In this document: positions 7,446 to 52,038 of the stretch, piece by piece
Layout of the letters: each line of letters begins with the position of its first letter
Position numbering within the stretch: position 1 is the first letter of the stretch
Source: Amycolatopsis alba DSM 44262
GTDB lineage: Bacteria > Actinomycetota > Actinomycetes > Mycobacteriales > Pseudonocardiaceae
Direction of reading: 5' to 3'
NCBI RefSeq assembly: GCF_000384215.1
Contig: NZ_KB913032.1
Coordinates: 459,021-523,020, forward strand
DNA: 64,000 nt
The notes under the pieces: model-generated
Told to the model about the DNA's origin: nothing
The model's database searches: none
What the model saw: the letters and a program-made list of their open reading frames with translations, nothing else
Program-made: the position numbers and the translations under genes

Positions 7446-10070
<2,625 letters not shown>

Positions 10071-10074
<4 letters not shown>

Positions 10075-34132: not shown

Positions 34133-34780
34133 GTGAGTGGGTTGGCGAAGGTGCCGAGGTCTCTCCTCAGGGACGAGGCCTACGAGAACATCCGCCGGGC
34201 GATCATCGACGGGACACTGCCGCCGGGGACGAACCTGCGCGACGGCGACCTCGCCGACCAGCTGGGTCTCTCCCGTGCGCCGGTGCGCCAAGCGTTGCTC
34301 CGTCTCGTTGAGGACGGTCTCGTCGAGTCGAAGCCGCAGAGCTACACGCGCGTGGCCGGCTTCGTTCCCGACGATGTCCGCGACGCGCTCCAGCTCGTGC
34401 GCGCGCTGCACGAGTTCGCCGTCCGCGCGGGCGCGCCGCGGATGGGGCCCGCCGAGGTCGCGGCGATGCGCGCGGCCAACACCCGGTTCGCCGACGCGAT
34501 CGCCGCCGGGGACATCGCGGCCGCGATCGCCGCCGACGACGAGCTCCACGACGTCCCGGTGGCCGCCGCGCGCAACCGGGCCATCGCCGCGACGCTGGCC
34601 CGCTACACCCCGCTGCTCCGACGTCTCGAATACGCCCGCTTCGGCTCCCTGCCCGCGCACCGGTCGGTCCAGCGTCACACGGAACTGGCCGACGCCATCG
34701 AAGCGGGCGACGTCGACGCGGCCTGCGCGATCACCGCCACGATCTGGACCGAACTCGAAACCCTCCTGGAGACGCCATGA
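34133..34780 (+). CDS. GntR family transcriptional regulator (FCD/FadR-like)
   Basis: 215-residue repressor. N-terminal winged [22 protein letters not shown], then [25 protein letters not shown]. The C-terminal helical FCD domain (about 85-210) contains [12 protein letters not shown] and [18 protein letters not shown], with the His/Asp metal ligands of that fold. GTG start. Its last four bases overlap the ACC deaminase start (ATGA), so it most likely controls that gene and itself in response to a small acid or amino acid. Confidence 0.93.
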
Positions 34781-35772
34781 CCCTCGCCGGCTTCCCGCGC
34801 TACCCGCTGCTGCTCGGCCCCTCCCCCGTCCACCCGCTCGAACGGCTCACAGCCCATCTCGGCGGCGCGCAGGTCTGGGCGAAACGCGAGGACGTCAACT
34901 CCGGGATCGCGTTCGGCGGCAACAAGACCCGGAAGCTCGAATACCTGGTCGCCGACGCGCTCGCCTCGGGCGCGGACACGCTGATCTCGATCGGCGGCGT
35001 GCAGTCGAACCACACCCGCCAGGTCGCCGCGGCGGCCGCGCGCGCCGGGCTCAAGGCCGTGCTGGTGCAGGAGAGCTGGGTCGACTGGAACGACCCGCTG
35101 TACGACAAGGTGGGCAACATCCAGCTTTCGCGCATCCTCGGCGCGGACATCCGGATGGTCGAGGCCGGATTCGGTGTCGGCTTCAAGGAAAGCTGGGAGA
35201 ACGCGGTCAAGGAGATCGAAGACGGCGGCGGGAAGCCGTACGCGATCCCGGCGGGCGGGTCGGATCACCGCCTCGGCGGGCTCGGTTTCGCGAACTGGAT
35301 CGTCGAACTCGAAGCGCAGGAGGCCGAGCTCGGCGTCTTCTTCGACACGGTGGTCGTCTGCTCGGTCACCGGCAGCACGCAGGCCGGGATGGTCGCCGGG
35401 GCCGCGCTGTCGGGCAAGCCGCGGCGGATCCTCGGCATCGACGGGTCGGCGAAACCGGCCGAGACCCGTGACCAGATCACCCGTATCGCGCGGGCGACCG
35501 CGGAGCTGATCGGCGCGGGCGAGATCAAGGAAGTCGAACTGGACGAGCGCTACCACGCCGGGATCTACGGCATCCCGGACGAGTCCACTTTGGACGCGAT
35601 CCGGACGCTGGCGCGACTGGAGGGTGTCCTCACCGATCCGGTGTACGAGGGCAAGTCGATGGCGGGGCTGATCGACCTGATCGCGCGCGGTGAAATCTCG
35701 CGGGACTCGAACGTGCTCTTCGCGCACCTGGGCGGGCAGCCCGCGCTGAACGGGTACACGAGCGTGCTCTAG
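34777..35772 (+). CDS. acdS: 1-aminocyclopropane-1-carboxylate deaminase
   Basis: PLP (fold type II) enzyme that opens ACC to 2-oxobutyrate and ammonia. The sequence follows Pseudomonas AcdS closely: [39 protein letters not shown] (PLP Lys in GGNKTRK near residue 51), [31 protein letters not shown], and [15 protein letters not shown] with the Tyr-Glu pair that separates true deaminases from D-cysteine desulfhydrases. 331 residues is close to the family length. Lowering plant ethylene is the known ecological effect in rhizosphere bacteria. Coupled to the upstream GntR gene. Confidence 0.92.
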
Positions 35773-35980: not shown

Positions 35981-36364
35981 TCAGTCCACCACGGCCAGGA
36001 CGTCGATCTCCACCAGCAGTCCGGCGGGCAGGCCGACGTACACGGTGGTGCGGGCCGGGTGCGGGGCCTCGCCGATCAGCTTGTTGTAGACCTCGTTGAA
36101 CACGCCGAAGTGGTCGACGTCGGTCAGGTACACGCGCACCATCACCGCGTCCGCCAGGCTCGACCCGGCGGCCTCGAGCACCGCTTCGATGTTCTTGAAG
36201 GTCTGCTCGGTCTGCTCGCCGACGGTCTCGCCGACGATGGCGCCGGTGGCCGGGTCGAAGGCGACCTGGCCGGCCACCTGCAGGATGTTGCCCTTGCGGA
36301 CCGCCTGCGAGAACGCGGCCACCGGCTTCGGCGCGTTCTCCGTGCTGATCGCGGTCTTGCTCAT
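35981..36364 (-). CDS. ridA: RidA family reactive intermediate/imine deaminase
   Basis: YjgF/RidA proteins hydrolyse enamine and imine intermediates released by PLP dehydratases and protect PLP enzymes. The 127-residue product has the trimeric fold signatures: NAPKPVAAFSQAVRKGN, QVAGQVAFDPATGAIVG, the loop with RVYLTDVDHFGVFNEVY, and ARTTVYVGLPAGLLVEIDVLAV with the key Arg and Glu. ATG 36364 overlaps the iclR stop by 4 bp. In this locus its natural partner is the divergent PLP dehydratase at 38214, whose reaction would release such an imine. Confidence 0.92.
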   Translation of the reverse strand: MSKTAISTENAPKPVAAFSQAVRKGNILQVAGQVAFDPATGAIVGETVGEQTEQTFKNIEAVLEAAGSSLADAVMVRVYLTDVDHFGVFNEVYNKLIGEAPHPARTTVYVGLPAGLLVEIDVLAVVD

Positions 36365-37125
36365 TCCAACTTCCCCTTTCGGTTCCCCGTCCATCCACTG
36401 TGGACGGAAGCTTCTTCGGTGGCGGCGAGGAGCTCGGGCACGAGCCCCATCAGGCCGTCGTAGTCCAGCAGGACCTTCGGCACCGATATCGACGCGGCCG
36501 CGAGCACGACGCCGCCAGGGCCGCGGACCGGCGCGGCGATGCAGTGGATGAAGTCCTCGTGCTCGGCGTTGTCCACCGCGTAGCCGCGGTCGGCGACGAG
36601 CGCGAGTTCCTGCCCGTAGGCCTCGGGCGTGGTGATCGTGTTCGGGGTGCGGACGAAGAAGTCGATCCTCGACACCACGTCCGCCTGCTTCTCCGGCGTC
36701 ATCGCCGCGACGAGCACCTTGCCGACCGCGGTGCAGTGCAGCGGCGCGCGTTTCCCGATGCGGGAGTACATCCGCACCGAATGCCTGCCCTCGAACTTGT
36801 CGATGTAGACGACCTCTCCGTCCTCGTAGGACGCGAGGTGGATGGTGTGCCCGGTGCGCGAGTTGAGCCCGGCGAGCGCCGATTGCGCGGTGCGGCGGAC
36901 GTCGCGGTCCTCCAGCGCCTGCTGCGCGAGGTCGAACAGCGCGCTGCCCAGCCGGTAGTACCGCTGCCCTTCCCGGCGCACGAAATGGTGCGTCTCCAGG
37001 GTGCGCAGCAACCGCAGCACGGTCGACTTGTGCACGCCGATCTCCTCGGCGAGCTGGTCGAGGGTCTTCGGCTCGCGGGCGAGCCCGCTCAGCAGCGTGA
37101 GCGCCCTGTCCAGGCTCTGACTCAT
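36361..37125 (-). CDS. IclR family transcriptional regulator (KdgR-like)
   Basis: 254 residues. Winged HTH at 5-60: SLDRALTLLSGLAREPKTLD, then LAEEIGVHKSTVLRLLRTLE. The IclR effector domain (75-245) contains RMYSRIGKRAPLHCTAVGKVLVAA, AEHEDFIHCIAAPVRGPGGVV and AAASISVP. ATG 37125 overlaps the kinase stop by 4 bp, and its own stop overlaps ridA. IclR regulators of KDG pathways (KdgR type) respond to KDG, which fits the KDG-kinase-like gene beside it. It probably binds the palindrome in the divergent promoter region at 38129-38203. Confidence 0.92.
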   Translation of the reverse strand: MSQSLDRALTLLSGLAREPKTLDQLAEEIGVHKSTVLRLLRTLETHHFVRREGQRYYRLGSALFDLAQQALEDRDVRRTAQSALAGLNSRTGHTIHLASYEDGEVVYIDKFEGRHSVRMYSRIGKRAPLHCTAVGKVLVAAMTPEKQADVVSRIDFFVRTPNTITTPEAYGQELALVADRGYAVDNAEHEDFIHCIAAPVRGPGGVVLAAASISVPKVLLDYDGLMGLVPELLAATEEASVHSGWTGNRKGKLE

Positions 37126-38102
37126 CCGCCCACCAATCCCTTGTCCGTCAGCTTCGCCGCCGCCCATGCTGCCTCATCCGCCCCGAGGAGCGTTTCGACG
37201 ACGGATTCGGGCAGCGGCGTCCCCACGTCGTCGTGGGTCAGCAGGGTGGCGGCGGCCTGCAGGTGCCCGCGCCGCAGCCGGGTCGCGGGGGCGTCGCCGC
37301 GCAGGGTGGCGGCGAGGAAGCCGGCCGCGAAAGCGTCACCGGCGCCGACCGGCTCGACGACGTCGACCTGGAGCGCGGGCGAGAACAGGGGCGCCGCGTC
37401 GCCGTCGATCAGGGTCACCCCGCGTTCGCCGTGCTTGACGACCAGCGTCTTCGGACCGGGCAGCGCGGCGCGCAGCCGTTCCGGGTCGCCGGTCCCCCAC
37501 ACCCGTTCGGCCTCGTCTTCTCCGGCGAGCACGATGTCGGCCCGCGCCGCCAGTTCGGCCAGAATCGAAGGATCTCGTCCGGTCCACAGCGCGGGCCGGA
37601 AGTTCACGTCGAACGACACCAGCGTGTCGCCGCGCGGGCGTTCCATCAGGGCGCGCACCAGGTCGAGGCAGCCGTCCGAGAGCGCGGGTGTGATCCCGGA
37701 CAGATGGATGACGCGCACCCCGTCGAGATCGAGTTTCCCCAGCAGCCCGGCGTCCATTCCGGACGCCGCCGAACCCTTGCGGTAGTAGCGCACGGGACTG
37801 CCCTGAGCGCCGCTTTCCTTGATGTAGAGCCCGGTCGGGCGCGTCGGATCGACCATGACCGCGCTGACGTCCACCCCCGCCGCCGCGATCTCGCGCACCA
37901 GCGCGCGGCCGAACGGATCGTCCCCGACGGCACTCACCCAGGCACTGGCGAAACCCAGCGCCGGGAGATGGCAGGCGACGTTCGACTCGGCCCCGCCGAT
38001 GGTCCGTACCCACTTCCGTACCTCGTCGGGCGGCCCGGATTCGGCCGGTACGAACAAGGCCATCGACTCCCCGATGCACAAAACGTGGGGCGCGCTTGTC
38101 AC
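37122..38102 (-). CDS. kdgK: PfkB family sugar kinase, probable 2-keto-3-deoxygluconate kinase
   Basis: Ribokinase-fold kinase of 326 residues. Start region HVLCIGESMALFVP, substrate loop GGAESNVACHLPALG, VSAVGDDPFGRALVREIAAAGVD, TRPTGLYIKE and the catalytic GAGDAFAAGFLAA near residue 250. GES-type N-termini and the RPTGLYIKE segment are typical of KDG kinases. Product would be KDG-6-phosphate for an Entner-Doudoroff aldolase not present here. GTG start; divergent from the PLP dehydratase gene with 111 bp between. Other ketose-acid substrates remain possible. Confidence 0.85.
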   Translation of the reverse strand: MTSAPHVLCIGESMALFVPAESGPPDEVRKWVRTIGGAESNVACHLPALGFASAWVSAVGDDPFGRALVREIAAAGVDVSAVMVDPTRPTGLYIKESGAQGSPVRYYRKGSAASGMDAGLLGKLDLDGVRVIHLSGITPALSDGCLDLVRALMERPRGDTLVSFDVNFRPALWTGRDPSILAELAARADIVLAGEDEAERVWGTGDPERLRAALPGPKTLVVKHGERGVTLIDGDAAPLFSPALQVDVVEPVGAGDAFAAGFLAATLRGDAPATRLRRGHLQAAATLLTHDDVGTPLPESVVETLLGADEAAWAAAKLTDKGLVGG

Positions 38103-38128
38103 CTTCGCGTCTCCTAGTCGTCACGCCG

Positions 38129-38203
38129 TTGACCTCTAGCGGACCGGATGCTACACCTATCCCACGCAATATGCGCAACGTCCGTTGCAACATACGCAAC
38201 CGA
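38129..38203 (+). promoter_or_regulatory. promoter and operator of the divergent aminosugar-acid operons
   Basis: On the plus strand TTGACC (38129-38134) is separated by 17 bp from TACACC (38152-38157). Just downstream, at 38168-38201, is a dense array of ATGCGCAAC/GTTGCAACAT-type half sites, centred on the palindrome GCAACG-TC-CGTTGC (38175-38188). Its place over the expected transcript start suits repression by the IclR protein encoded next door. Predicted from sequence pattern only. Confidence 0.55.
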
Positions 38204-38213
38204 GGTGAACCCC

Positions 38214-39518
38214 ATGTTCGAAGCCGGCACCATCGATTCCGCCGCGGTCGCGGCCGTCCGGGAGGAACGCGTCGACTGGCGCTTCCGCTCGGTCGCGCCT
38301 TCGCTGTCCGGTCTCACGATCGGCGAAGCCGCCTCTCGCGGCGCGAAGCTGTTCGACGACGGCTTCCTCGGCCCGTTCGTGGTCCTCGACGAAGAGGCCG
38401 TCGAGCACAACCTGCGCACGATGGCCGACTGGTGCGCCACGCGTGGTGTCGCGCTGGCGCCGCACGGCAAGACGACGATGGCGCCGCAGCTGTTCGAGCG
38501 GCAGCTCCAGCACGGTTCCTGGGGCATCACCTGCGCGAACGCCGGGCACCTGCGCATCTACCGGGCGTTCGGGGTCTCCCGGATCCTGCTGGCGAACCAG
38601 CTGCTCGACCCGTCCGGGCTGAAGTGGCTCGCCGCGGAACTCGACGCCGACGACGACTTCGAGTTCGTCTGCTGGGTCGACTCGGTCCGCGGTGTCGAGC
38701 TGATGACCGAAGCCCTGCGCGGGGCCCGCCGCAAGGTGGACGTCCTCGTCGAACTGGGTGCCGAGGGTGGCCGCACCGGTGTCCGCGACACCGGAACCGC
38801 GCTCGCCGTGGCCGAAGCCGCCCACGCGAGCCCGGCCCTGCGGCTACGCGGATCCGGCGGCTACGAGGGCGCGCTCTCCCACCATACCGACGAGAAGTCG
38901 CTGCAGCTGATCAGTTCCTATGTGGACGGTCTGCGCGAACTCGTCTTCGCCTTCCACGACAAGGGCCTGCTCGACGACGCCGGTCAGATCATCGTCACCG
39001 GCGGCGGCAGCGCGTACTTCGACCGCGTCGCCGACGAACTCACCAAGGACTGGGGCGGCCTGGACGTCCTGCCGATCCTGCGCAGCGGCGCGTACGTGAC
39101 CCACGACGACGGCTTCTACCGTGTGATCTCCCCGCTGGGCGAGCATCCGCGCATCGGCGGCGTCGCCTCGTTCCGTCCCGCGCTGCGCGCCTGGGCGCAG
39201 GTCACGTCGAAGCCGACGGACGAACTCGCCCTGCTCACCATCGGCAAACGGGACGCCTCCTTCGACGAAGGCATGCCCGAACCGCGCCTGATCCGCAAAG
39301 GCGACGGACAGGCGTCCGCGCTCGAAGGTCATTCCATCCAGAAGATGAACGACCAGCACGCCTTCCTCACCCTGCCCGCGTCGTCCCCGGTCGAGGTCGG
39401 CGACTGGATCGCCCTCGGTCTGTCCCATCCCTGCACCGTCTTCGACAAGTGGCCCCTCATCCCGGTCGTCGGCCCCGACGGCGAGACCGTGCTCGATTTC
39501 GTCCGCACGCATTTCTGA
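38214..39518 (+). CDS. PLP-dependent fold-III dehydratase/deaminase, probable D-glucosaminate dehydratase
   Basis: 434-residue enzyme of the D-threonine aldolase/D-serine dehydratase (alanine-racemase fold) group, often annotated 'amino acid deaminase'. PLP lysine is K86 in APHGKTTMAP; other motifs are DVLVELGAEGGRTGVRD and VTGGGSAYFD. The metal-binding C-terminal part includes LSHPCTVFDKW with the His-Cys pair. First gene of the plus-strand operon, divergent from a KDG-kinase-like gene and followed by an N-acyl-D-amino-acid deacylase, which together point to 2-amino-2-deoxy-D-gluconate (glucosaminate) as substrate, giving KDG and ammonia. From sequence alone, other D-amino acids cannot be excluded. 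Confidence 0.85.
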   Translation: MFEAGTIDSAAVAAVREERVDWRFRSVAPSLSGLTIGEAASRGAKLFDDGFLGPFVVLDEEAVEHNLRTMADWCATRGVALAPHGKTTMAPQLFERQLQHGSWGITCANAGHLRIYRAFGVSRILLANQLLDPSGLKWLAAELDADDDFEFVCWVDSVRGVELMTEALRGARRKVDVLVELGAEGGRTGVRDTGTALAVAEAAHASPALRLRGSGGYEGALSHHTDEKSLQLISSYVDGLRELVFAFHDKGLLDDAGQIIVTGGGSAYFDRVADELTKDWGGLDVLPILRSGAYVTHDDGFYRVISPLGEHPRIGGVASFRPALRAWAQVTSKPTDELALLTIGKRDASFDEGMPEPRLIRKGDGQASALEGHSIQKMNDQHAFLTLPASSPVEVGDWIALGLSHPCTVFDKWPLIPVVGPDGETVLDFVRTHF

Positions 39519-39551
39519 TCCGTCCTCCACCGCCGCAGAGGAAGAATCATC

Positions 39552-41147
39552 ATGGACATCGTTGTCCGCTCCGCACTGGTCGCCGACGGCACCGGGGATC
39601 CGCTCACCAGGCACGACGTGGGCATCTCCGGTGGCAGGATCGCCAGTGTCGCCGAACCCGGCTCGCTCGCGGGCCGCCGCACCATCGACGCCGAAGGACT
39701 CGTGCTCGCGCCAGGGTTCATCGACATGCACTCGCATTCCGATCTCCAGCTGCTCGCCAATCCGGATCACATCGCGAAGCTCTCCCAAGGCGTCACCACC
39801 GAGGTCCTCGGACAGGACGGGCTCTCCTACGCGCCCGTGAACGACGACGTCCTCGCGTCACTGCGCCAGCAGCTCGCCGGGTGGAACGACGACCCGGCAG
39901 GCTTCGACTGGAACTGGCGCTCGGTCGGCGAGTACCTCGACCGGCTCGACGCCGGGGTCGCGGTCAACGCGGCCTACCTGGTGCCGCAGGGCACCGTCCG
40001 CATGCTCACCGTCGGCTGGGAAGACCGGCCAGCCACCGAGGCCGAGATGAACGCGATGAAGGAACTCATCGCGACCGGTCTCGCCGAGGGCGCGATGGGC
40101 ATGTCGTCCGGGCTCACCTACACACCGGGCATGTACGCGACGACCGAAGAACTCGTCGAGCTGTGCCGGGTCGTCGGCGAACGCGGTGGTTTCTACAGCC
40201 CGCACCACCGCAGCTACGGCAAGGGCGCGCTGGAGGCGTTCGGCGAGATGGTCGACGTCTCCCGCCGCTCCGGCTGCCCGCTGCACCTCGCGCACGCCAC
40301 GATGAACTTCTCGGTGAACAAGGGCAAGGCGGGAAATCTGCTGGAGCTGCTCGACCAGGCACTCGACGACGGCTGCGACATCACGCTCGACACCTATCCC
40401 TACCTTCCCGGCGCCACCTACCTTTCCGCGCTGCTCCCGAGCTGGTCCACCGAAGGCGGGCTCGACGCCACCCTGGCCCGGCTGTCCGATGTGGACACCC
40501 GCGAACGGATCCGCGCCGAGATCGAGGAGACCGGCTCGGACGGCGCGCACGGCGTGCCGATCGACTGGGAGGCCATCGAGATCAACGGTGTCCGCCGGGA
40601 CGAGAACTCCCACCTCGTCGGGCATTCCGTGGCCGCGTCGGCTCAGCGAGCCGGGAAGCCGGCCGCGGAGCTGTACTTCGACGTCCTGCTGTCGGAGAAG
40701 CTCGGCACGTCCTGCCTGATGCACGTCGGGCACGAGGAGAACGTCCAGGCGATCATGCGGCACCGGACGCACACCGGGGGCAGTGACGGCCTCCTCGTCG
40801 GCGCGCGGCCGCATCCGCGTGCCTGGGGAACGTTCCCGCGCTACCTCGCGCGCTACGTCCGCGAGCTCGGCGTCCTGGACCTCGCCGAATGCGTCTCCCA
40901 CCTCACCGGCCGCGCGGCGCAGCGCCTGCGGCTGACCGACCGGGGTCTCGTCCGCGCCGGATACGCGGCCGACCTCGTGCTGTTCGACCCGGAAACCGTC
41001 GCCGACACCGCCACGTTCGACGAGCCGCGGCAGCAGGCCGCCGGTATCCCCCATGTCTTCGTCAACGGTGTCGCCGCCATCGACGATGGTCAACCGACCG
41101 GCGCCCTCGCCGGCCATTCACTGCGGAACCCCTGGAGTGCCCGATGA
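39552..41147 (+). CDS. N-acyl-D-amino-acid deacylase family, probable N-acetyl-D-glucosaminate deacetylase
   Basis: Zinc amidohydrolase of 531 residues. Metal motif HSHSD at residues 60-64 in GFIDMHSHSDLQLL; further ligands in YSPHHRSYGKG and LHLAHATMNFS; C-terminal signature GGSDGLLVGARPHPRAWGTF, then TGRAAQRLRLTDRGLVRAGY, typical of D-aminoacylase. The family removes acyl groups from D-amino acids, and N-acetylglucosaminate is chemically an N-acetyl-D-amino acid. It lies 33 bp after the dehydratase gene and overlaps the permease gene by 4 bp. An ordinary N-acetyl-D-amino acid substrate is the alternative. Confidence 0.88.
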   Translation: MDIVVRSALVADGTGDPLTRHDVGISGGRIASVAEPGSLAGRRTIDAEGLVLAPGFIDMHSHSDLQLLANPDHIAKLSQGVTTEVLGQDGLSYAPVNDDVLASLRQQLAGWNDDPAGFDWNWRSVGEYLDRLDAGVAVNAAYLVPQGTVRMLTVGWEDRPATEAEMNAMKELIATGLAEGAMGMSSGLTYTPGMYATTEELVELCRVVGERGGFYSPHHRSYGKGALEAFGEMVDVSRRSGCPLHLAHATMNFSVNKGKAGNLLELLDQALDDGCDITLDTYPYLPGATYLSALLPSWSTEGGLDATLARLSDVDTRERIRAEIEETGSDGAHGVPIDWEAIEINGVRRDENSHLVGHSVAASAQRAGKPAAELYFDVLLSEKLGTSCLMHVGHEENVQAIMRHRTHTGGSDGLLVGARPHPRAWGTFPRYLARYVRELGVLDLAECVSHLTGRAAQRLRLTDRGLVRAGYAADLVLFDPETVADTATFDEPRQQAAGIPHVFVNGVAAIDDGQPTGALAGHSLRNPWSAR

Positions 41148-42532
41148 TCGACTGGCTCCAACATTCGACGGGAGGTCTCCTGACCCTCGCCGCCGTCTCG
41201 ATCGCGGTGTTGTTGTTCCTCATCATCAAAGTCAAACTCGAGCCCTTCATCGCGCTGATCGTGGTCGGCCTGCTGACCGCGCTGGCCGCGGGCCTGCCGG
41301 TCGGGCAGATCGTCGGCTCCGCGCAGAAGGCATCGGATTCCTTGCTGGAGAAGGGTTTCGGCGGGATTCTCGGCCATATCGCCGCGATCATCGGGCTCGG
41401 CACCATCCTCGGGTCCATTTTGGAGCGTTCCGGCGGGGCGAAGGTGCTCACCGGCGCGCTGCTACGGGCGATCGGCGAGAAACGGGCCCCGCTGGCGATG
41501 GGTCTCGCGGGCTTCGTCTTCGGCATCCCGGTCTTCTTCGACATCGGCATCTTCGTGCTGGCACCGCTGGTCTACGTCGCCGCCAAACAGGGCGGCCGTT
41601 CGCTGGTGCTGTACGCGTTGCCCCTGCTCGCCGGTCTCTCGATCACGCACGCGTTCCTTCCGCCGCACCCCGGCCCGGTGACCGCGGCGGGCCTGCTGCA
41701 CGTGGAACTCGGCTGGATCATCCTGATGGGCCTGGTCTGCGGTATCCCGGCGTTCCTCATCGGCGGCGTGGCGTACTCGACCTGGATCGGCAAGCGCATC
41801 GACGTGCCGGTTCCCGCGGAATTCCTCGTCGCCGAGGAAGAGGGTGAGAAGGAGGAGAACCCGCCGTCGCTCAAGCTGGTGGTGGCGATCATCGCGGTCC
41901 CGCTGGTGCTGATCCTCGCCGGGACCTTCGGCAGCATCTGGCTTCCCAAGAACTCCGCGCCCGCCGGTGTCGCCGCGTTCATCGGTACCCCGGCGGTCGC
42001 GCTGACGATCTCGGTGCTGCTCGCGTCGTGGCTGCTGGGCCTGCGCCGCGGCTTGACGGGCAAGGATTTGAGCGAGCTTTCGGCGAAGTCGCTCCGCCCG
42101 GTCGCGATGATCCTGCTGGTGGTCGGCGCCGGCGCGTTCTTCGGCGCCGTGCTGTCCGCGACCGGTATCGGCAAGGCCGTCGCGGGTTCGCTGGACAACG
42201 CCGGTCTGCCGGTCATCCTGGCGGCCTACGTCATCAGTTGCGGAATGCGGATCGCGCAGGGTTCGGCGACGGTCGCGATCGTGACCACGAGCGGTATCGT
42301 CGCGCCGACGGTGGCGACTCTCGGCTACTCACAGATCCAGCTCGCGCTGCTGGTCGTGGCGATTTCCGCCGGGTCGATCATCGCGTCGCACGTGAACGAC
42401 GGCGGCTTCTGGATCATCTCGCGGTATTTCAACATGACGGTGCCGCAGACCCTGAAAACCTGGACCGTCTTGGAAACCGTCCTTTCCGTTTCCGGTTTCG
42501 GCGTGGCAGCATTGCTCATGGCAGTGGTTTAA
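41144..42532 (+). CDS. GntP family sugar-acid permease
   Basis: Integral membrane transporter of 462 residues with about 12 helices, for example LLTLAAVSIAVLLFLIIKVK, FIALIVVGLLTALAAGLPVG and GLPVILAAYVISCGMRIAQG. Signature elements of GntP include GFGGILGHIAAIIGLGTILG, FFDIGIFVLAPL, HPGPVTAAG and GSATVAIVTTSGI. GntP members import gluconate and related acids with protons; here N-acetylglucosaminate or glucosaminate is the likely cargo. Start overlaps the deacetylase stop (ATGA). Confidence 0.93.
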   Translation: MIDWLQHSTGGLLTLAAVSIAVLLFLIIKVKLEPFIALIVVGLLTALAAGLPVGQIVGSAQKASDSLLEKGFGGILGHIAAIIGLGTILGSILERSGGAKVLTGALLRAIGEKRAPLAMGLAGFVFGIPVFFDIGIFVLAPLVYVAAKQGGRSLVLYALPLLAGLSITHAFLPPHPGPVTAAGLLHVELGWIILMGLVCGIPAFLIGGVAYSTWIGKRIDVPVPAEFLVAEEEGEKEENPPSLKLVVAIIAVPLVLILAGTFGSIWLPKNSAPAGVAAFIGTPAVALTISVLLASWLLGLRRGLTGKDLSELSAKSLRPVAMILLVVGAGAFFGAVLSATGIGKAVAGSLDNAGLPVILAAYVISCGMRIAQGSATVAIVTTSGIVAPTVATLGYSQIQLALLVVAISAGSIIASHVNDGGFWIISRYFNMTVPQTLKTWTVLETVLSVSGFGVAALLMAVV

Positions 42533-42559
42533 ACCACCTGAAAGCTGGGAGAGATCACG

Positions 42560-43690
42560 ATGACCGGACTCGATCGACGCACCTTCCTCGGCGCCGTCGG
42601 AGCGGCTGGACTCACCACCGTTCTCGGTTCCCACCTCGCGAACGCCTCCGAACAGACCTGCGGACCGAAGGGAACCGGGGCCATCTACATCAGCAGCTAC
42701 ACCAGTTCCGGGCACGGACTCGATGTCGCTCACCGGGACGCGACCACGAACGCGCTGGTCGTCGACCGGACGATTCCGGGAGTCAGCAACGCTTCCTGGT
42801 TCGACATCAGTGCCGACCGCAAGACGCTTTACGTGACCAATGAGGACGAGAACGGCCAGATCTCCGCTCTCAGCCTCGCCGATCCGGCGAAACCCAAGCT
42901 GCTCAACAAGAAGTCGGCGAAGGGCCAGCACCCGACGCATCTGAGCGTCCACTCGAGCCAGAAGTACGTGCTGGCCGCGAACTACAGCAGCGGCAGCGTC
43001 GTCGTGCTCCCGATCCTCGCGGGCGGGAAACTCGGCGACGTCGTCGATCTGGCCCAGCACAAGGGCGCCGAACGAGCCGCGCACGCGCACCAGGTGGTCA
43101 ACGATCCCACCGGCAAGTGGGTGCTCTCGGTCGACCTCGGCGCGGATTCGGTCTACGTCTACAAACTCGACGTCGCCACCGGGAAACTGAAGCTGAACCA
43201 GCAGCTGAAGCTCCCGTCGGGCGCCGGGCCGCGTCACCTCGCCTTCCACCCGAATGGCAAGTACGCGTACATCCTCGGCGAGCTGCGGGCCGAGGTGACC
43301 ATCGCGGCGTGGGACCCGGCGACCGGGAAACTGACCGCCGGACAGGTCGTCAAGGCCGTTCCGGCCGGCACTCCCGGCGAGCAGTATCCGGGCGAGATCA
43401 CCACGTCCAAGGACGGCAAGTTCGTCTACGCGTCCGTGCGCGGTTCCGACACGATCGCGTCGTTCGGCGTCGGCGAGGACGGGAAGTCCTTGAAGCTGCT
43501 GAACAACACACCCGTGGGTGGCGTCTACCCGCGTCACCTCACCCTGGATCCGACCGAAAGCTGGTTCTACGTTTCCAGCGACAAGTCCGGCACGCTGAGC
43601 TGGCTGCCGCGTGATCCCGCCACCGGTCTCCCTGGGGCCGTCGCCGGAAAGCTGGCGCTCCCCCAGGTCAATTCCGTCTTTTTCGCATAA
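42560..43690 (+). CDS. Tat-exported lactonase family beta-propeller protein
   Basis: 376 residues. The N-terminus MTGLDRRTFLGAVGAAGLTT carries a twin-arginine signal (R6-R7) with cleavage near ANAS at 29-32, so the enzyme is exported folded. The rest is a seven-bladed propeller of the 6-phosphogluconolactonase/YVTN type: repeats such as DRKTLYVTNEDENG, QKYVLAANYSSGSV, GAGPRHLAFHPNGKYAYIL, DGKFVYASVRGSDTIA and YPRHLTLDPTESWFYVSSD. Known members open sugar lactones. In this operon the natural target is the 1,5-lactone made by C1-oxidising chitin monooxygenases. It lies 27 bp after gntP. Confidence 0.87.
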   Translation: MTGLDRRTFLGAVGAAGLTTVLGSHLANASEQTCGPKGTGAIYISSYTSSGHGLDVAHRDATTNALVVDRTIPGVSNASWFDISADRKTLYVTNEDENGQISALSLADPAKPKLLNKKSAKGQHPTHLSVHSSQKYVLAANYSSGSVVVLPILAGGKLGDVVDLAQHKGAERAAHAHQVVNDPTGKWVLSVDLGADSVYVYKLDVATGKLKLNQQLKLPSGAGPRHLAFHPNGKYAYILGELRAEVTIAAWDPATGKLTAGQVVKAVPAGTPGEQYPGEITTSKDGKFVYASVRGSDTIASFGVGEDGKSLKLLNNTPVGGVYPRHLTLDPTESWFYVSSDKSGTLSWLPRDPATGLPGAVAGKLALPQVNSVFFA

Positions 43691-43702
43691 GGAGAAAATT
43701 TC

Positions 43703-44986
43703 ATGAGAACTCGCGTCCTCATCGCGGGCCTCGCGGCGGTCGGCCTCGTCGCGGGCTGCGCGCCGGCCCAGAACACCCCCGCCGCGAGCGGCGGCGACGA
43801 GAAGTCCGGCACGGTCCGGGTCTGGCTGTTCGACGAAGCCAACCGCGCGCCGAAGGAAGCCGCGGTCAAGGAGGCGATCGCCGAGTTCAAGGCGGCGCAT
43901 TCGGGTGTCGAGGTCGACGTCCAGTGGATCCCGGTGGAAGGCCGCGCGGACAAGTTCTCCGGCGCCTTCAACGACCCGGCCAGCGCGCCGGACGTCGCCG
44001 AGTTCGGCAACACCGACGTCTCCAGCTACGCCGCCACGGGCGCGCTGGCCGACCTGACCGGCGACCTGTCGTCGTGGAAGGAAGGCGCCGACATCCTGCC
44101 CGCGGTCCTGGAGACGGCGAAGTCCGGCGGCAAGACCTACGGGCTTCCCTGGTTCACCGGCATCCGCGCCTTGTACTACCGCACGGACCTCTTCGCCGAA
44201 CTCGGCCTCAAGCCGCCTGCCACGCTGGCGGAACTGACCGAGACCGCGAAGACGATCCGCGCCAAGAAGCCGGAGCTGTACGGCATCTCCGTCGGTGGCA
44301 AGTACACCTACGCGATGCTGCCGTTCCTGTGGGCGCACGGCGGCGAGATCGCCAAGCAGGACGGCGACAAGTGGAAGTCCACTCTGGACTCCGAGCAGGC
44401 CAAGGCAGGCGTGACGACGTACGCGAACCTGCTGAAGGCGGACATCTGCCCGCCGGAGCAGTGCGCCAACCTCACCGGGACGCAGAGCATCACGGCGTTC
44501 GCGGGCGGCAAGGCCGGTATGTCGATCGGCGGTGACTTCAACCGCAAGGCCGTCGAAGCCGGTCAGGTGAAGGGCAAGTACGCGATCATCCCGATCCCCG
44601 GCACCGAGGCGGGGAAGATCGCCCCGGCGTTCGCGGGCGGCAACCTGCTCGGCGTGTTCAACGCGACCAAGCGCAAGAGCCTCGCGGTCGAGTTCACCGA
44701 GCTGCTCGGTGGCGCCAAGTACCAGGAGAAGATGTACGTCGCCATGGGCAACCTGCCCACGCTCGGCAGTGTCCAGCAGAAGCTCGCCGCGAGCGACCCG
44801 TCGGTCAAGCCGTTCGTCGACACGCTCACCGCCGGCACGAAGTTCGTCCCCGCCACCGCGGCGTGGTCGAAGATCGACGCGCAGAACGTGCTGCCGACCG
44901 CGATCCAGCAGATCGCGACCGGCGGCAAGGACCCCGCGGCCGCGCTCGCGACCGCGTCCGCCGAGATGAACAAGGCGTTCGGCTAA
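43703..44986 (+). CDS. sugar ABC transporter substrate-binding lipoprotein
   Basis: 427-residue family 1 solute-binding protein. Lipoprotein signal MRTRVLIAGLAAVGLVAGC with lipobox LVAGC and lipid-modified Cys19. The mature part shows VRVWLFDEANRAPKEAAVKE, YGLPWFTGIRALYYRTDLFAELGL, and FAGGKAGMSIGGDF, typical of CUT1 oligosaccharide binders. Starts 12 bp after the lactonase stop with AAGGAGAAA as RBS; its TAA abuts the first permease start. Ligand is unproven; the operon suggests chitobionate or chitin oligomers. Confidence 0.93.
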   Translation: MRTRVLIAGLAAVGLVAGCAPAQNTPAASGGDEKSGTVRVWLFDEANRAPKEAAVKEAIAEFKAAHSGVEVDVQWIPVEGRADKFSGAFNDPASAPDVAEFGNTDVSSYAATGALADLTGDLSSWKEGADILPAVLETAKSGGKTYGLPWFTGIRALYYRTDLFAELGLKPPATLAELTETAKTIRAKKPELYGISVGGKYTYAMLPFLWAHGGEIAKQDGDKWKSTLDSEQAKAGVTTYANLLKADICPPEQCANLTGTQSITAFAGGKAGMSIGGDFNRKAVEAGQVKGKYAIIPIPGTEAGKIAPAFAGGNLLGVFNATKRKSLAVEFTELLGGAKYQEKMYVAMGNLPTLGSVQQKLAASDPSVKPFVDTLTAGTKFVPATAAWSKIDAQNVLPTAIQQIATGGKDPAAALATASAEMNKAFG

Positions 44987-45946
44987 GTGGTCACCAAGGA
45001 AATCCCCCGCACCACGGCTCCGGCCGTCCCGGCACGGCGGTCCCCCCGCCGTCGCCGGGACGGGCGGGCCGCCCTGCTCTACCTGGCGCCCGGCGGCATC
45101 CTGCTGCTCGCGATGCTGGTGTACCCGATCTACCAGCTCGTCCTGATCTCGTTCTACGACTACGGCCAGCCGCAGGCGGTCGGCAACGCGCCACTGGTGT
45201 TCCTGGGCTTCCAGAACTACCTCGACCTGCTGGAGAACCTCCAGTTCTGGGAGGTACTGGCCAAGACCCTCGGCTTCACCGCGGTCTGCGTCGTCGGCAG
45301 CCTGGCGCTGGGGACAGGGCTCGCCGTGCTGGCGACCCGTGTCCGCGCCTGGGCGCGGGTCCCGCTGTTCCTCGCGGCGCTGGCCGCCTGGGCGACACCG
45401 GCGATGGCGGGCTCGTACGTCTGGCTGTTCCTGTTCGACGCGGACTTCGGCCTGGTGAACGAGGTGCTTTCGGGCCTCGGGTTCACCGGGATGGCGAACC
45501 ACTCCTGGACGTTCGACACTTACAGCACGTTCGGGCTGGTGGCCGCCGAGGTCATCTGGTGCTCGTTCCCGTTCGTCATGGTGACCATGTACGCGGGGCT
45601 CAAGGGCGTGCCGGAGGAGGTCATCGAGGCCGCGTATCTCGACGGCGCGTCGACCTGGCGCACCACATGGTCGATCACGCTGCCGATGGTGCGGCCGCTG
45701 CTGACCATCGCCACCATCCAGTCGATCATCTGGGACTTCAAGATCTTCACCCAGATCTACGTGATGACCAACGGCGGCGGCGTGGCCGGGCGCAACCTCG
45801 TGCTCAACGTCTTCGCCTATCAACAGGCCTTCGCCGGACAGGAATACGGTCTCGGCGCGGCGCTCGGAGTCGTGATGACCTTGCTGCTGCTGTCCATCAC
45901 CGGGCTGTACGTCCGGTCGCAACGCCGGAGCGCGGGATGGGTGTGA
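44987..45946 (+). CDS. sugar ABC transporter permease (MalF-type)
   Basis: CUT1 permease of 319 residues with six predicted helices, beginning after a basic N-terminal tail at AALLYLAPGGILLLAMLVYPIY. The cytoplasmic EAA loop is EEVIEAAYLDGASTWRTTW, which docks the ATPase. GTG start directly after the binding-protein stop. No ATPase gene follows; actinobacterial CUT1 importers usually share a MsiK-type ATPase encoded elsewhere. Confidence 0.94.
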   Translation: MVTKEIPRTTAPAVPARRSPRRRRDGRAALLYLAPGGILLLAMLVYPIYQLVLISFYDYGQPQAVGNAPLVFLGFQNYLDLLENLQFWEVLAKTLGFTAVCVVGSLALGTGLAVLATRVRAWARVPLFLAALAAWATPAMAGSYVWLFLFDADFGLVNEVLSGLGFTGMANHSWTFDTYSTFGLVAAEVIWCSFPFVMVTMYAGLKGVPEEVIEAAYLDGASTWRTTWSITLPMVRPLLTIATIQSIIWDFKIFTQIYVMTNGGGVAGRNLVLNVFAYQQAFAGQEYGLGAALGVVMTLLLLSITGLYVRSQRRSAGWV

Positions 45947-46818
45947 TCACGGCTCCCGCCCGGCGTCCCCGCCGGGTCAAGAAGCCGGGCAGGCTGATCG
46001 CCGAGATCATCTGCGTGGTGATCGCGGGAATGGTCGCGTTCCCGGTGTACTGGATGGTGCTTTCGGCGTTCAAGCCGACCGGGCAGATCCAATCGGACAA
46101 CCCCCGCCCCTGGACGCTGACGCCGACCCTGGAGCACTTCGAACGGGTGCTCAGCGGCGAGGGCTTCGCGCTGTTCTTCCTGAACAGCGTGATCGTGGCC
46201 GTCGTGGTGGTGGCGCTGTCGCTGCTGCTGTCGTTCCTTTCGGCGGTCGCGCTGACCAGGTTCAACTTCAAGGGCAGGACCGTCCTGCTGGTGATGGTGC
46301 TGGTGGCGCAGATGGTGCCGGTCGAGGCGCTGACCATTCCGCTGTTCTTCCTGATGCGGTCGGTCGGCGACGTCGCTCCCGCGTTCGGCACCAACCACCT
46401 CGGCTCGCTGATCCTGGTGCATCTGGCGTTCAGCCTGCCGTTCGCGATCTGGATGCTGCGCGGGTTCGTCGCCGCGGTGCCGCAGGAGCTGGAAGAGGCG
46501 TCGAAGATCGACGGGGCGAGCCGGATGCGGTTCACCTGGCAGATCCTCTTCCCGCTGGTGGCGCCGGGGCTGGTGGCGATCAGTGTGCTCGCGTTCATCC
46601 ACGCCTGGAACGACTTCCTGTTCGCCAAGACGTTCATCATCTCCAACACCGAGAATCAGACGCTCCCGCTGGCGATCCTGGTGTTCTTCAAACCGGAGGA
46701 CACCGACTGGGGCGCGGTGATGGCGGGTTCGACCCTGATGACCATCCCGGTGCTGGTGTTCTTCATTCTCGTGCAACGACGACTCGTGTCCGTCATGGGC
46801 GGCGCGGTGAAGGGCTGA
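45937..46818 (+). CDS. sugar ABC transporter permease (MalG-type)
   Basis: Second CUT1 permease, 293 residues, six helices from LIAEIICVVIAGMVAFPVYW. The EAA loop is QELEEASKIDGASRMRFTW and the ending VQRRLVSVMGGAVKG is typical of MalG relatives. Its start overlaps the preceding permease by 10 bp. It pairs with that gene to form the membrane channel. Confidence 0.94.
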   Translation: MGVITAPARRPRRVKKPGRLIAEIICVVIAGMVAFPVYWMVLSAFKPTGQIQSDNPRPWTLTPTLEHFERVLSGEGFALFFLNSVIVAVVVVALSLLLSFLSAVALTRFNFKGRTVLLVMVLVAQMVPVEALTIPLFFLMRSVGDVAPAFGTNHLGSLILVHLAFSLPFAIWMLRGFVAAVPQELEEASKIDGASRMRFTWQILFPLVAPGLVAISVLAFIHAWNDFLFAKTFIISNTENQTLPLAILVFFKPEDTDWGAVMAGSTLMTIPVLVFFILVQRRLVSVMGGAVKG

Positions 46819-46819
46819 C

Positions 46820-48226
46820 ATGCCTGGCTTCGAAACTCTGCTCCCCCGTCCCGTCTCGGTGGAACCGCTGCCGGGACAGTGTTCTGCACCGTCCGAAGTG
46901 GACGTGCGTAGCGACGACCTCCTGCCTGCCGAGGGCTACCGGCTGGAGATCGACCCGTCCGGCGTGACCCTGCACGCGGCCGACGCGGCGGGCGAGTTCT
47001 ACGGCCGCCAGACGCTCCGGCAGCTCATCGGGCCGGACGCGTTCCGGGCGGCGTCGATCCACAGTGGACAGCAGACGATCCCCTGCGGTGTGGTCACCGA
47101 CCACCCGAGGTTCGGCTGGCGCGGGACACTGCTCGACGTGGCGAGGAACTTCCGGACCAAGGCCGAGGTGCTGCGGTTCGTCGACCTGATCGCCGCGCAC
47201 AAGCTCAACGTGCTCAACCTGCACCTGACCGACGACCAGGGCTGGCGGATCGAGATCCCCGAGTTCCCCAGGCTCACCGAGGTCGGCGGCTGGCGGAAGT
47301 CGTCCATGGTCGGGCGGCACGACGGACCGGAGCGCGACGGGCGTCCGCACGGCGGCTTCTACTCGGCCGACGACCTCCGCGAGATCGTCGCGTACGCCGC
47401 CGCGCGTGCGGTGACGGTCGTCCCGGAGGTCGACATCCCAGGGCATGCGCGGGCCGCGATCGCCGCCTATCCCGAACTCGGCCCGGAGACCACCGAACCG
47501 TGGGAGGTGTGGACGAGCTGGGGCATCAGCACGTCACTGCTGAACACGGAAAAGTCCACTGTGGACTTCTTCAAACGCGTCTTCGACCACGTGCTGGACA
47601 TCTTCCCGTCCGAGGTCATCGCCCTCGGCGGCGACGAGGTTCCCGGCGCGACCGAGGAACACGGCTGGTTCGTCCGCGAGATCGCCCGGCACCTGGTCGA
47701 ACGAGGACGTCGTCCGCTCGGCTGGGACGAGGTGCTCGAAGCGGGCGACCTGCCGCCGATGGTCATCGGCTCATGGCAGAGCGAGGCGGCGGGCGCGCGA
47801 GCCGCGGCCGCCGGTCACGACGTCGTCATGTGTCCCGAGGACCACATCTACTTGGACCACCGGCAGTCCGATCATCCCGACGAGCCGATTCCCGTCGGGT
47901 ATCTGAGCACGTTGGAGAGCTTCTACGGCTACGAGCCGGTGCCCGCCGATTTCCCCGAGGGGAAGACGATTCTCGGGGCGCAGGCGCAGGTGTGGTCGGA
48001 GCATCTCGACACCGTGCGGCGGGTGGACTACGTCGCCTTCCCGCGACTGGCCGCTTTCGCCGAGGTGGCGTGGAGCGACCCCGCGGGGCGGGACTACGCG
48101 GAGTTCCTGCCGCGCCTGCGGGATCACCACCTGCCGCGGCTGGACGCGCTGGGCGTCGAGTACCGGCCGCTCGACGGGCCGCACCCGTGGCAGACACGGC
48201 CTGGGGTTCCCGGACGACCGCGGTAG
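46820..48226 (+). CDS. GH20 beta-N-acetylhexosaminidase
   Basis: Cleaves terminal GlcNAc residues from oligosaccharides by substrate-assisted catalysis. 468 residues: short GH20b-type N-terminal domain (1-95), then the barrel with WRGTLLDVARNFRTKAEVL, LNLHLTDDQGWRIEIPEFPRL, VPEVDIPGHARAAI and the catalytic Asp-Glu in IALGGDEVPGA near residue 275; later WDEVLEAG and AQVWSEH. No signal peptide, so it acts on imported oligomers. It starts 1 bp after the permease stop, tying it to the ABC importer. Likely substrate: chitobiose or chitobionate. Confidence 0.94.
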   Translation: MPGFETLLPRPVSVEPLPGQCSAPSEVDVRSDDLLPAEGYRLEIDPSGVTLHAADAAGEFYGRQTLRQLIGPDAFRAASIHSGQQTIPCGVVTDHPRFGWRGTLLDVARNFRTKAEVLRFVDLIAAHKLNVLNLHLTDDQGWRIEIPEFPRLTEVGGWRKSSMVGRHDGPERDGRPHGGFYSADDLREIVAYAAARAVTVVPEVDIPGHARAAIAAYPELGPETTEPWEVWTSWGISTSLLNTEKSTVDFFKRVFDHVLDIFPSEVIALGGDEVPGATEEHGWFVREIARHLVERGRRPLGWDEVLEAGDLPPMVIGSWQSEAAGARAAAAGHDVVMCPEDHIYLDHRQSDHPDEPIPVGYLSTLESFYGYEPVPADFPEGKTILGAQAQVWSEHLDTVRRVDYVAFPRLAAFAEVAWSDPAGRDYAEFLPRLRDHHLPRLDALGVEYRPLDGPHPWQTRPGVPGRPR

Positions 48227-48282
48227 CTGGTCCGAAAAGAACATCGGGTGGGCCGCCGTCAAAGGTGGCCCACCCGACTCCT

Positions 48283-51200
48283 TCATCCTCCGTTGTCGTA
48301 GCGAAGCTCTTGCATCGCTTTCAGAAGCATGTCGGCGGCCATCGCCCAAGTTCGCCTCTCCGCCATCTCCTCACGCAGCAGCCTCGCCATCCCGAAAGAA
48401 GGCTTCGGATTGGCAAGGACAGCCGCGATCGCGTCCCCCCACCGCAACGTGTCCTTGTACTCCTCTTCCGTGACCGGGATCAGCTTGTTCGACAGATCCA
48501 CAGACAGCTCGGATTGTTCCTCGGCGAGCAGAAGGCCCAACCCGCTTCGCTTGCTGATCAGCGTCGGTACTCCCAGCTTGATCGCCTCCAGCCCGACCAG
48601 CCCGAACCCCTCGGAGCGGGAAGGCATGATGACGACGTTCGCACGATGCAAGTCCTGCCGCAAAGCCTCTCTGTCCGGAGAGTACGGTCGTGGAACCACC
48701 CGCAGGGAATCATTCCCGGCCCAGGATTTGACTTCGCGGATCAGACGCTCGGAGTCTCCTTTCTCGGCCCCGCGAAGCACCAGTTCGACTTCAGGCTCAT
48801 TCGCTCCTCGCTGCGACAGCACATGTCCCAGAGCCCTGGCCGCAATGTCGACGCCCTTGATCCGCGCTTCCTGATGCCCTAGCCGTCCCATCAGAAGTAC
48901 GCGAACCGTGTCGCTGAGCACCGGCGTTTCCGCTATGTCGTCGGAGACATCGAATCCGGGATCGAGTCGCAACACCTCCGGACCTCCGGAACCACGTAGA
49001 TGGTCCCGCAGGTTGTTGCTCAGTGCTGGCCCGACCCCGATCGCCAGATGCGCCTTCTTCGCGATCTCGATCTCATGCCTGCTGCGCTCGTCGGCCTGGG
49101 CGGCCGGATCTCCGTCCATTCTCCGTTTGTCGACTTCGACTCGATCGGAGACAACATGCAGGAAATGCAGGAGCTTGGCGTCCCGATAGTGGTCTTCTAC
49201 CAGCCACAAGGCGGCTTCGCCGGTCTTACGACCGTGCCCGATGACGAAGTCAGGGGTGATCGGTGAAGAGACGACCGGCGGCCGGGACAACGCGCTTTCC
49301 GGCGCTCCCAACGCGGCGGGTGGATGTACCAGATGGACACCTGCCGCAGCCGCGTCGTTCCGCTCCTCGTCACTCGCACTCGGTACCGAGCAGAACACCT
49401 CCGCGCCTTTCCCGGCAAGTGCTTTGCAGAGCTCACGGTTGATGGTGCTGATACCGCCGCCGTGCCCCGAGGCCCACTCGGTGTTGACCGCCAGTACACG
49501 AACCCGCCCAGGGTCAACGACCGTCACCTCAGGTCGAGGTTCGTGCTTTAGCGGCTCTTCGTGGCCCTGCTCCACCTGAGCCTTCTGCTCGCCCCTCAGC
49601 CGCTCGACGTCAGCGACCGCACCGACTTCGTTATACAGAGCGATCGCCGCCGCGCGATGCGCGTCGGCGTCGACCAGACGATCTTGAGCAGCAGCCGCTC
49701 GGCCGAGGCCCTCATAGGCAACCGCCTCCTCTCGCTGCGCTTTACCCGATCGAGCACGGTCTATCGCATTCCGGTAGTGATTCGCCGACGCATCGAATTC
49801 ACCCAAGAGCAATTCCGTTTCAGCGAGATGAGAAATGAGCTGCGCAACATCACCGTCACGAAAGAGAAGTTCCATGTAATCATCCAGCACCTTCTCGAAG
49901 TTCACCTTCGCAGCAGCGAGCCCACCAAGCCGAAGCTCGCAACGCGCGATGCAATCAAGGGCAATCGCCGCATTCGATCGCAGCGCCTGATCACGATAGA
50001 AAGCCCAAGCGCGCCGGGACAGGTCCAGCGCCTGACCGAAGTCACCTCGCTCATATGCGAGCCAGGCCCGGTTCGCCCCGACATTCATCTCGCCGAAACG
50101 GTCATCGGCGGCGGAGAACTCCAACTGGGCACGCGAGTACAGCTCCATCGCCTCATCCTTGTGGCCGAGCTGCATACTGGCCAGGCCGAGGTTGTTGAGG
50201 ACGATAGCAATTGCACGATGGTCACCGGTACGCGTCGCCGCCTCCATGGCCTGCCCATAGCAAGCCGTCATCAATTCCCACTGCTTGGTGGCATAAAAAT
50301 AACCCCGAAGGCAATAAGCGAACTGCCAGCAGACCATGTCATGACGCCGCGATGCCATCTCCTGAAGCAACGGAAGGAAGTTATCCACTTCGCTTTCCAT
50401 CCACTTTCCAGCCGAATAGGCGTCCGGAAACAACGGAGTCTCCACAGCCGGAGAAACCAGATCGAGCTCCAGCCGATAACGATGCTCGTCAATATGGGAA
50501 TCCGCCGCGGCGGCGGCATGCAGGAAATATTCGAATAGTCTTTCTCTTGCCGAATCCTCCTCCGGACCGGACAGCAATTCAGCATCTGGACGACGCAGGT
50601 GATCCCGTAACACATCGTGCACGCGGTACGCGCTATGGGAATGCCGTTCGAGCATCCCGGCCCTGATCAGCTCGTCCAAGAGGCTCTCGGCCGCGGCAGG
50701 TGAGATTCCCGCCATCGCCCCGGCCGCCCACGCGTCCACTCGAGGGCCTGGATGCGCCGCCATGAGCTGCAGCATCGCCAGTTGCGCGTCGGACAGCGTG
50801 GCGCAAGAAGCCTCGAGCACCGCGGTCACGCTTCGCAACCCGTCGGTGAGCTCCTGGTGACGAGCCGCTTGATCGGCGAGACGAGCGGCCACATCTTCCA
50901 GCCGCCGGGCTGGATTGTCCCGGAAGCGCGATGCGACGATGCACACCGCGAGGGGAAGCCGGTAGCACATCTCGGTGATCTTCCGGACGACCGCCGGATC
51001 GCCCCTTTCGGTCGTCCCCAGTTCGGCGACCGAGGTGAACAAGGCCATCGCGGCTGCAGGCTCCAGCGCCCGGACATGCTGGTGCAAAGCCGCGTCCAAG
51101 ACGGTCAGTGGCTGGCGGCTGGTGATGACGACCGCAGACCTGCCGTTGGGTGGTCTCAAAGCATGCACCTGCTGAGCACTCGAGACGTTGTCGAGCATCA

Positions 51201-51810: not shown

Positions 51811-52038
51811 CGCTGTCCCTCTTCTCGCGGTCACTCGCACTGCTCAGATGTTCACCCATGGTCAGGCAAGACACCTGGGTACAGGGCCCCCTCGAGCCGT
51901 TCAGCCGTTACAAAACCCGATGGGAACGATGGAACGGCAGGACAGGTCGCGGCGACCACCGCACATGGTGAAGTCTCTGGGGAGAAAAGACTACTGGACG
52001 ACACCTGCGCCAGCGTCGGCTGAGAGGATCCAACGAAC

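Follow-up and report, generated by a model that had tools for sequence, protein, structure and literature searches.

What substrate is served by a gene cluster that joins a D-aminoacylase-like amidohydrolase and a D-serine deaminase-like enzyme with sugar importers and a beta-N-acetylhexosaminidase? The question is raised by the locus at positions 35981 to 48226 of a 64,000-nucleotide stretch (the window) from Amycolatopsis alba DSM 44262, whose genome comprises 9.81 Mb in a single contig. In our assessment there is a good probability that its genes make up an autonomous system, under IclR control, for the use of C1-oxidised chitin ends, resembling the ong cluster of Pseudoalteromonas prydzensis ACAM 620. 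As described in the accessible parts of the report on that organism (PMC9537276), ong encodes the GH20 enzyme OngA, the D-aminoacylase-like OngB, the fold-type III pyridoxal phosphate (PLP) enzyme OngC, the RidA-like OngD and the kinase KdgK, and the route was found in Gammaproteobacteria and one betaproteobacterium. A literature search, which covered few subscription papers, found no account of a comparable route in Actinobacteria.

Gene content and proposed pathway

A preliminary description of the locus had pointed to an oxidative chitin route in marine Pseudoalteromonas, which is real and corresponds to ong (PMC9537276, seen in part), and had assigned ten genes in two divergent groups to a similar pathway. 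Open reading frames (ORFs) and Pfam matches gave eleven genes, three leftward and eight rightward, the latter in one tight run with intergenic gaps of at most 33 bases or 4-base overlaps; the divergent arrangement and every gene family named there were present. The cluster is more than a chance arrangement because its gene order repeats in relatives.

In the route that we infer, a seven-bladed lactonase exported by the twin-arginine translocation (Tat) pathway (42560 to 43690, + strand; PF10282) would open the lactone of C1-oxidised chitin. The closest named enzyme in the Protein Data Bank (PDB) is the periplasmic gluconolactonase PpgL (6igb, 135 bits), and it is the family together with the export signal, the twin-arginine motif RRTFLG, that suggests this step. 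Oxidised chitooligomers such as GlcNAc-GlcNAc1A would be brought in by a CUT1-type ABC importer consisting of a lipoprotein sugar-binding protein (43703 to 44986, + strand; PF01547, PF13416) with the lipobox LVAGC, permease A (44987 to 45946, + strand; PF00528) and permease B (45943 to 46818, + strand, with a GTG start at 45943; PF00528 in the enclosing ORF). No ATPase is encoded in the operon and a shared one elsewhere is assumed; the binding protein scored 34.5 bits against the NgcE model TIGR03851, below its cut-off of 399.65. Free N-acetylglucosaminate (GlcNAc1A) would enter through a GntP-type aldonate permease (41144 to 42532, + strand; PF02447; TIGR00791, 385.3 bits with a cut-off of 292.75).

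The GH20 beta-N-acetylhexosaminidase (46820 to 48226, + strand; PF02838 and PF00728, the latter at 320 bits and above its cut-off) matched 3rcn with 510 bits, and the alignment contains GGDEVP, GGDE being the catalytic motif of GH20. Acting in the cytoplasm, it would split the oligomer into GlcNAc, which would follow the ordinary route, and GlcNAc1A. No signal peptide was visible in its translation by eye, the lactonase and binding-protein motifs having been read in the same way; the Tat-type lactonase, lipoprotein binder and cytoplasmic GH20 of the preliminary description agree with the translations. From GlcNAc1A, the amidohydrolase (39552 to 41147, + strand; PF07969, Amidohydro_3), hereafter the deacylase, would strip acetate to leave glucosaminate, from which the fold-type III PLP dehydratase (38214 to 39518, + strand; PF14031, D-ser_dehydrat, and PF01168, Ala_racemase_N) would form 2-keto-3-deoxygluconate (KDG) and ammonia; no signal peptide was visible by eye in either translation. 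The RidA-family protein (35981 to 36394, - strand, with a likelier start near 36364; PF01042, 1e-34) would handle the enamine/imine, and the PfkB kinase (37122 to 38102, - strand; PF00294) would convert KDG to its 6-phosphate (KDPG). An aldolase, encoded elsewhere in this genome and within the cluster in relatives, would then yield pyruvate and glyceraldehyde-3-phosphate. Repression of the cluster is attributed, tentatively, to the IclR-family regulator (36361 to 37167, - strand, with a likelier start near 37125; PF01614, PF09339).

Linkage to GlcNAc and KDG metabolism in relatives

In locus L109, a single ORF of 1103 residues (7542 to 10853) combines the deacylase with a GH20 domain. The dehydratase precedes it, RidA is divergent, and downstream come a ROK-type regulator, a ROK kinase and NagB, the last passing TIGR00502 with 243.5 bits (cut-off 236.9). 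Relatives of the fusion numbered 342 among 7988 scored candidates; all 120 listed carry PF07969 and PF00728, and among the matches listed, all those bearing a genus name are from Microbacterium. Fusion loci of this type are L109, L171 to L182 and L185. Since the deacylase is fused to GH20 beside NagB, its substrate should derive from a GlcNAc glycoside, and it appears, from domain content and linkage, to act on something that GH20 releases from such a glycoside. In Arthrobacter psychrochitiniphilus the core genes, with aldolase and GntP, are adjoined by GH20 and three CUT1 genes.

The 80 named loci retrieved with the Microbacterium fusion protein, some of them on short contigs, contained RidA (74), dehydratase (73), IclR (60), KdgK (57), GntP (40), KDPG aldolase (24), GH20 (19) and NagB (14). 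Six of the 24 in-cluster aldolases were tested, and all six exceeded the TIGR01182 and PF01081 cut-offs. In the A. alba genome two genes of the KDPG aldolase family (PF01081) were found, in answer to the genome check that the preliminary description had proposed. The dehydratase resembles the fold-type III D-serine deaminase 3gwq (280 bits over nearly its full length), from which it differs in being accompanied, in relatives, by a KDG kinase and KDPG aldolase. RidA passes TIGR00004 (122.4 bits, cut-off 106.25). The kinase matched the KDG kinase 1v19 with 144.7 bits, and its top NCBIfam models are KDG/KDGal kinases, every score being below its cut-off; it is a probable KDG kinase. The presence of a kinase and a KDPG aldolase in the operons of relatives suggests that the dehydratase yields KDG; degradation of D-amino acids would need neither.

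Conservation of the cluster

A search of 200 genomes from the window's family found the dehydratase in 166 (E value of 1e-3 or better), with strong matches in 132. From the latter, 40 loci were selected manually, one from each of 40 genomes and as a rule one for each genus; they contained RidA (36), deacylase (33), IclR (32), GntP (28), KdgK (26), lactonase (18), binding protein (15) and GH20 (14). The core of RidA, IclR, KdgK, dehydratase, deacylase and GntP is therefore common, and the import and GH20 part is optional. Dehydratase, deacylase, RidA and IclR were present in all 11 loci of one Streptomyces-like genus, with KdgK in 10 and GntP in 8; two sets of loci were drawn from 20 of 43 and 20 of 35 matching genomes (L110, L162 and L163 being short). 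The core is widespread in Actinobacteria and so is not peculiar to this strain. The pathway gene set of the preliminary description thus held for its core, and its lactonase, CUT1 and GH20 part held for a subset of loci. In one locus from the window's family (L057, about 4 to 11 kb) dehydratase, IclR, RidA, lactonase, CUT1 and GH20 stand together with no adjoining deacylase, KdgK or GntP, and a deacylase of 68% identity is located elsewhere in the same genome.

Promoter region and probable operator

Ahead of the dehydratase, a TTGC-N7-GCAA palindrome with an additional half site (GCAATATGCGCAAC..CGTTGCAACATACGCAAC, 38166 to 38201, unstranded) is a probable IclR operator, judged from its conservation. 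With loci assigned to groups by hand, the palindrome was found ahead of the dehydratase in all 45 loci having an IclR gene and in none of the 9 without one; in 100 shuffles it occurred in a mean of 0.12 of the 45 loci, with a maximum of 1. The only exact match to the pattern in the genome is the cluster's own site. The longest dehydratase ORF (38148 to 39518) begins inside this promoter and operator stretch. Many orthologue matches begin at residues 22 to 28 of that ORF and a ribosome-binding-site-like GAGGTGA precedes 38214, which is the likelier start. A scan of 38050 to 38260 for sigma-70-type promoters found none.

Co-occurrence with AA10 monooxygenases

Three genes for lytic polysaccharide monooxygenases (LPMOs) of family AA10 were found in the A. 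alba genome, as the preliminary description had suggested checking; for the two proteins compared with the PDB the closest relatives were chitin-binding/AA10 proteins. Of the 200 genomes from the window's family, 140 encode AA10; it was present in 119 of the 125 that have the deacylase vs 21 of the 75 that lack it. The positive set comprises 125 of 127 genomes: G018 (41% identity) and G192 (48%), both without AA10, were counted as negative, and G158, with a partial deacylase, as positive. By genus majority AA10 occurred in 29 of 31 deacylase-positive vs 4 of 15 deacylase-negative genera, in a table that covers 188 of the 200 genomes and is the sole treatment of kinship. GH10 xylanase served as a lifestyle control: AA10 was found in 58 of 64 genomes with the deacylase vs 13 of 60 without it when GH10 was absent, and in 61 of 61 vs 8 of 15 when GH10 was present, and deacylase and GH10 showed no association once AA10 was fixed. 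Genome size alone is an insufficient explanation, as adding AA10 to it gave a likelihood-ratio chi-square of 33.7 (188 genomes). Together with the in-cluster KDPG aldolase and the deacylase-GH20 fusion beside NagB, this co-occurrence supports the pathway of the preliminary description as a candidate.

Comparison with the ong cluster

As far as ong is described in the parts of its report (PMC9537276), the two clusters share GH20, a D-aminoacylase-family deacetylase, a fold-type III PLP dehydratase, RidA and a PfkB kinase; AA10 LPMOs are encoded in both genomes and deamination would precede any phosphorylation in both. In contrast to the periplasmic OngA, the GH20 of the window has no visible signal peptide; CUT1 and GntP stand in place of TonB receptors (TBDR) and a sodium symporter (OngIT), and IclR in place of a MurR/RpiR regulator. 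The window in addition has the exported lactonase, and its relatives in Microbacterium the GH20 fusion. The deacetylase is of another clade, with Asp replacing the Cys metal ligand. The cluster is likely to be the equivalent of the ong pathway in Actinobacteria, with a deacetylase that was recruited independently.

The deacylase and alternative substrates

The deacylase is the weak and also the new point of the pathway reading. Parts of the OngB structure paper (PMC12017989) give the metal ligands and specificity residues of PpOngB and state that Cys97 and Lys254 are strictly conserved in OngB and in both D-aminoacylase groups, that Thr292 and Leu298 are D-aminoacylase features, and that the AfDam pocket has the hydrophobic Phe191 and Met254. 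These positions were compared in 135 deacylases of at least 48% identity, near-copies and a few twice-fetched genomes included; position 116 was left out because two alignments placed it differently. Both His ligands (His222 and His252), the HxH pair (His68 and His70), Tyr194, Tyr285 and the catalytic Asp of PpOngB are retained. The PpOngB Ala193/AfDam Phe191 position is Thr in 131 of 135 and Ser in the remainder, and the Ala256/Met254 position is Asn in all 135. As judged from the alignment, polar Thr and Asn at these places suit a sugar acid.

Several observations weigh against the pathway reading. The deacylase scores better with D-aminoacylase 1m7j (281 bits) than with PpOngB 9kb1 (220 bits). 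Asp stands at the position of the metal ligand Cys97 and Tyr at that of Glu226 in all 135 sequences, the carboxylate-binding Lys254 is replaced by Thr in 130 of 135, and Ser292 by Thr in 135 of 135, as in D-aminoacylases; the Gln298 position reads as the D-aminoacylase-like Leu in an ungapped extension past PpOngB residue 294. A probable Streptomyces orthologue of the deacylase is, we presume, Sco4986 of Streptomyces coelicolor, since a phosphoenolpyruvate carboxykinase gene adjoins the cluster in one Streptomyces-like locus (L102) and presumably matches the position of Sco4986. That protein, when assayed, reportedly deacetylated N-acyl-D-amino acids with hydrophobic side chains; we know of no test of it on GlcNAc1A. 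Beyond the deacylase, some distant loci lack KdgK or lie near amino-acid or other permeases, and in four fusion loci (L174, L179, L181 and L185) RidA is present and no dehydratase match adjoins the fusion. AA10 genes occurred in 0 of 160 loci, and physical linkage to the cluster was rejected. In the fusion-bearing family AA10 was found in 2 of 150 genomes and in none of the 12 that encode the deacylase clade; extension of the co-occurrence to this family was likewise rejected, and in its members the cluster would be used for scavenging, or for acid of another origin. Operator-like sites with at most 2 mismatches showed no excess over the genome (6 vs 8 for the reversed pattern), so that the IclR regulator looks local; a wider regulon including the LPMO genes was rejected on these counts, one of the sites (L146) lying between unrelated genes.

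In a tree of the N-terminal 300 residues, rooted at the midpoint and with long branches, the clade of the window deacylase (support 96/87) was separate from the group of four PDB sequences (100/99), within which PpOngB paired with 9g5m (100/98). Since the OngB signature residues differ (Cys97 to Asp, Lys254 to Thr and Ser292 to Thr among them) and the clade is separate, the deacylase is not an orthologue of OngB. It also departs from the subtype V D-aminoacylases AfDam (1m7j) and BbDam (3gip), its closest solved structures by score: Thr292 is shared, as described for D-aminoacylases (PMC12017989), and the Cys ligand and the alpha-carboxylate Lys254 are missing. We propose, from residues and gene linkage, that it is an N-acetylglucosaminate deacetylase of a separate clade. 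The PDB entry 9g5m, named 'Amidohydrolase family protein', has the PpOngB-like SSS stretch and pocket Ala residues and is possibly a GlcNAc1A deacetylase, judged from these residues. In further loci (L115/L168 and L167), KdgK, dehydratase and IclR accompany a deacylase of 36 to 38% identity with Asp97, Gly226 and His254, which forms a sister clade.

The core could instead be an N-acyl-D-amino-acid utilisation operon, in which the deacylase frees D-amino acids, D-serine or D-threonine is deaminated by the fold-type III enzyme, the imine is removed by RidA and the sugar genes are neighbours of different function. The nearest PDB relatives of deacylase and dehydratase, the presumed Sco4986 assay and an amino-acid permease beside the distant locus L155, on the opposite strand, agree with this. 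So do Thr292 and probably Leu298, as in AfDam (PMC12017989, in part), and the acceptance of D-serine and D-threonine by OngC itself (PMC9537276, in part). We nevertheless regard such an operon as improbable, as it gives no reason for a KDG kinase and a KDPG aldolase in the cluster, for the fusion to GH20 beside NagB, for an aldonate permease of the GntP type, for the LPMO co-occurrence or for the polar residues at the AfDam Phe and Met positions, and as the alpha-carboxylate-binding Lys of D-aminoacylases is missing from the deacylase. Slightly less probable still is the same chemistry on another acid amino sugar, such as N-acetyl-galactosaminate or -mannosaminate, or with GlcNAc1A supplied by non-AA10 sources such as fungal oligosaccharide oxidases or cross-feeding. 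The near absence of AA10 from the fusion-bearing family, a deacylase pocket unlike that of PpOngB, and the likeness of the kinase, below cut-off, to bifunctional KDG/KDGal kinase models would fit, but three findings agree with the gluco series and chitin: NagB and GH20 adjoin the deacylase, the aldolase passes the KDPG/KHG model, and AA10 is associated with the deacylase in the window's family.

Neighbouring genes

Immediately ahead of the cluster, a single-module reducing polyketide synthase with the order KS-AT-DH-KR-ACP is encoded at 28875 to 34055 (+ strand) and a PALP-family PLP enzyme at 34777 to 35772 (+ strand). Right after GH20, at 48283 to 51840 (- strand), lies a gene for a 1185-aa protein with HTH_31, NB-ARC, TPR and GT4-conflict glycosyltransferase domains; this architecture suggests a role in conflict or defence, and none of the PADLOC models matched it. 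A nearby gene (52039 to 53730, + strand) encodes a TIR-domain protein of 563 aa that also matches AAA weakly, and G+C content drops to 0.633 at 48001 to 52000.

Possible implications for chitin use by Actinobacteria

AA10 is common in the window's family, yet the published GlcNAc1A route, in the parts of the report seen (PMC9537276), covers the gammaproteobacterial and betaproteobacterial organisms named above. We lean, with less assurance than for the cluster itself, towards the wider view that Actinobacteria, independently of OngB, recruited another D-aminoacylase branch, with Asp for the Cys metal ligand and an altered carboxylate site, for GlcNAc1A, that the Microbacterium fusion converts chitobionate to GlcNAc and glucosaminate, and that a cluster with its own IclR operator, and with KDPG aldolase in many lineages, lets Actinobacteria on land feed widely on oxidised chitin, scavengers that lack LPMOs among them. 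If use of C1-oxidised chitin ends is the true function, the half of terrestrial oxidative chitin use that is still missing would be named, and many proteins now called N-acyl-D-amino-acid deacylase and D-serine deaminase would be reassigned. The deacylase would represent a second, convergent family of GlcNAc1A deacetylases, and the Microbacterium fusion would be a natural bifunctional enzyme, an idea testable with one purified protein.

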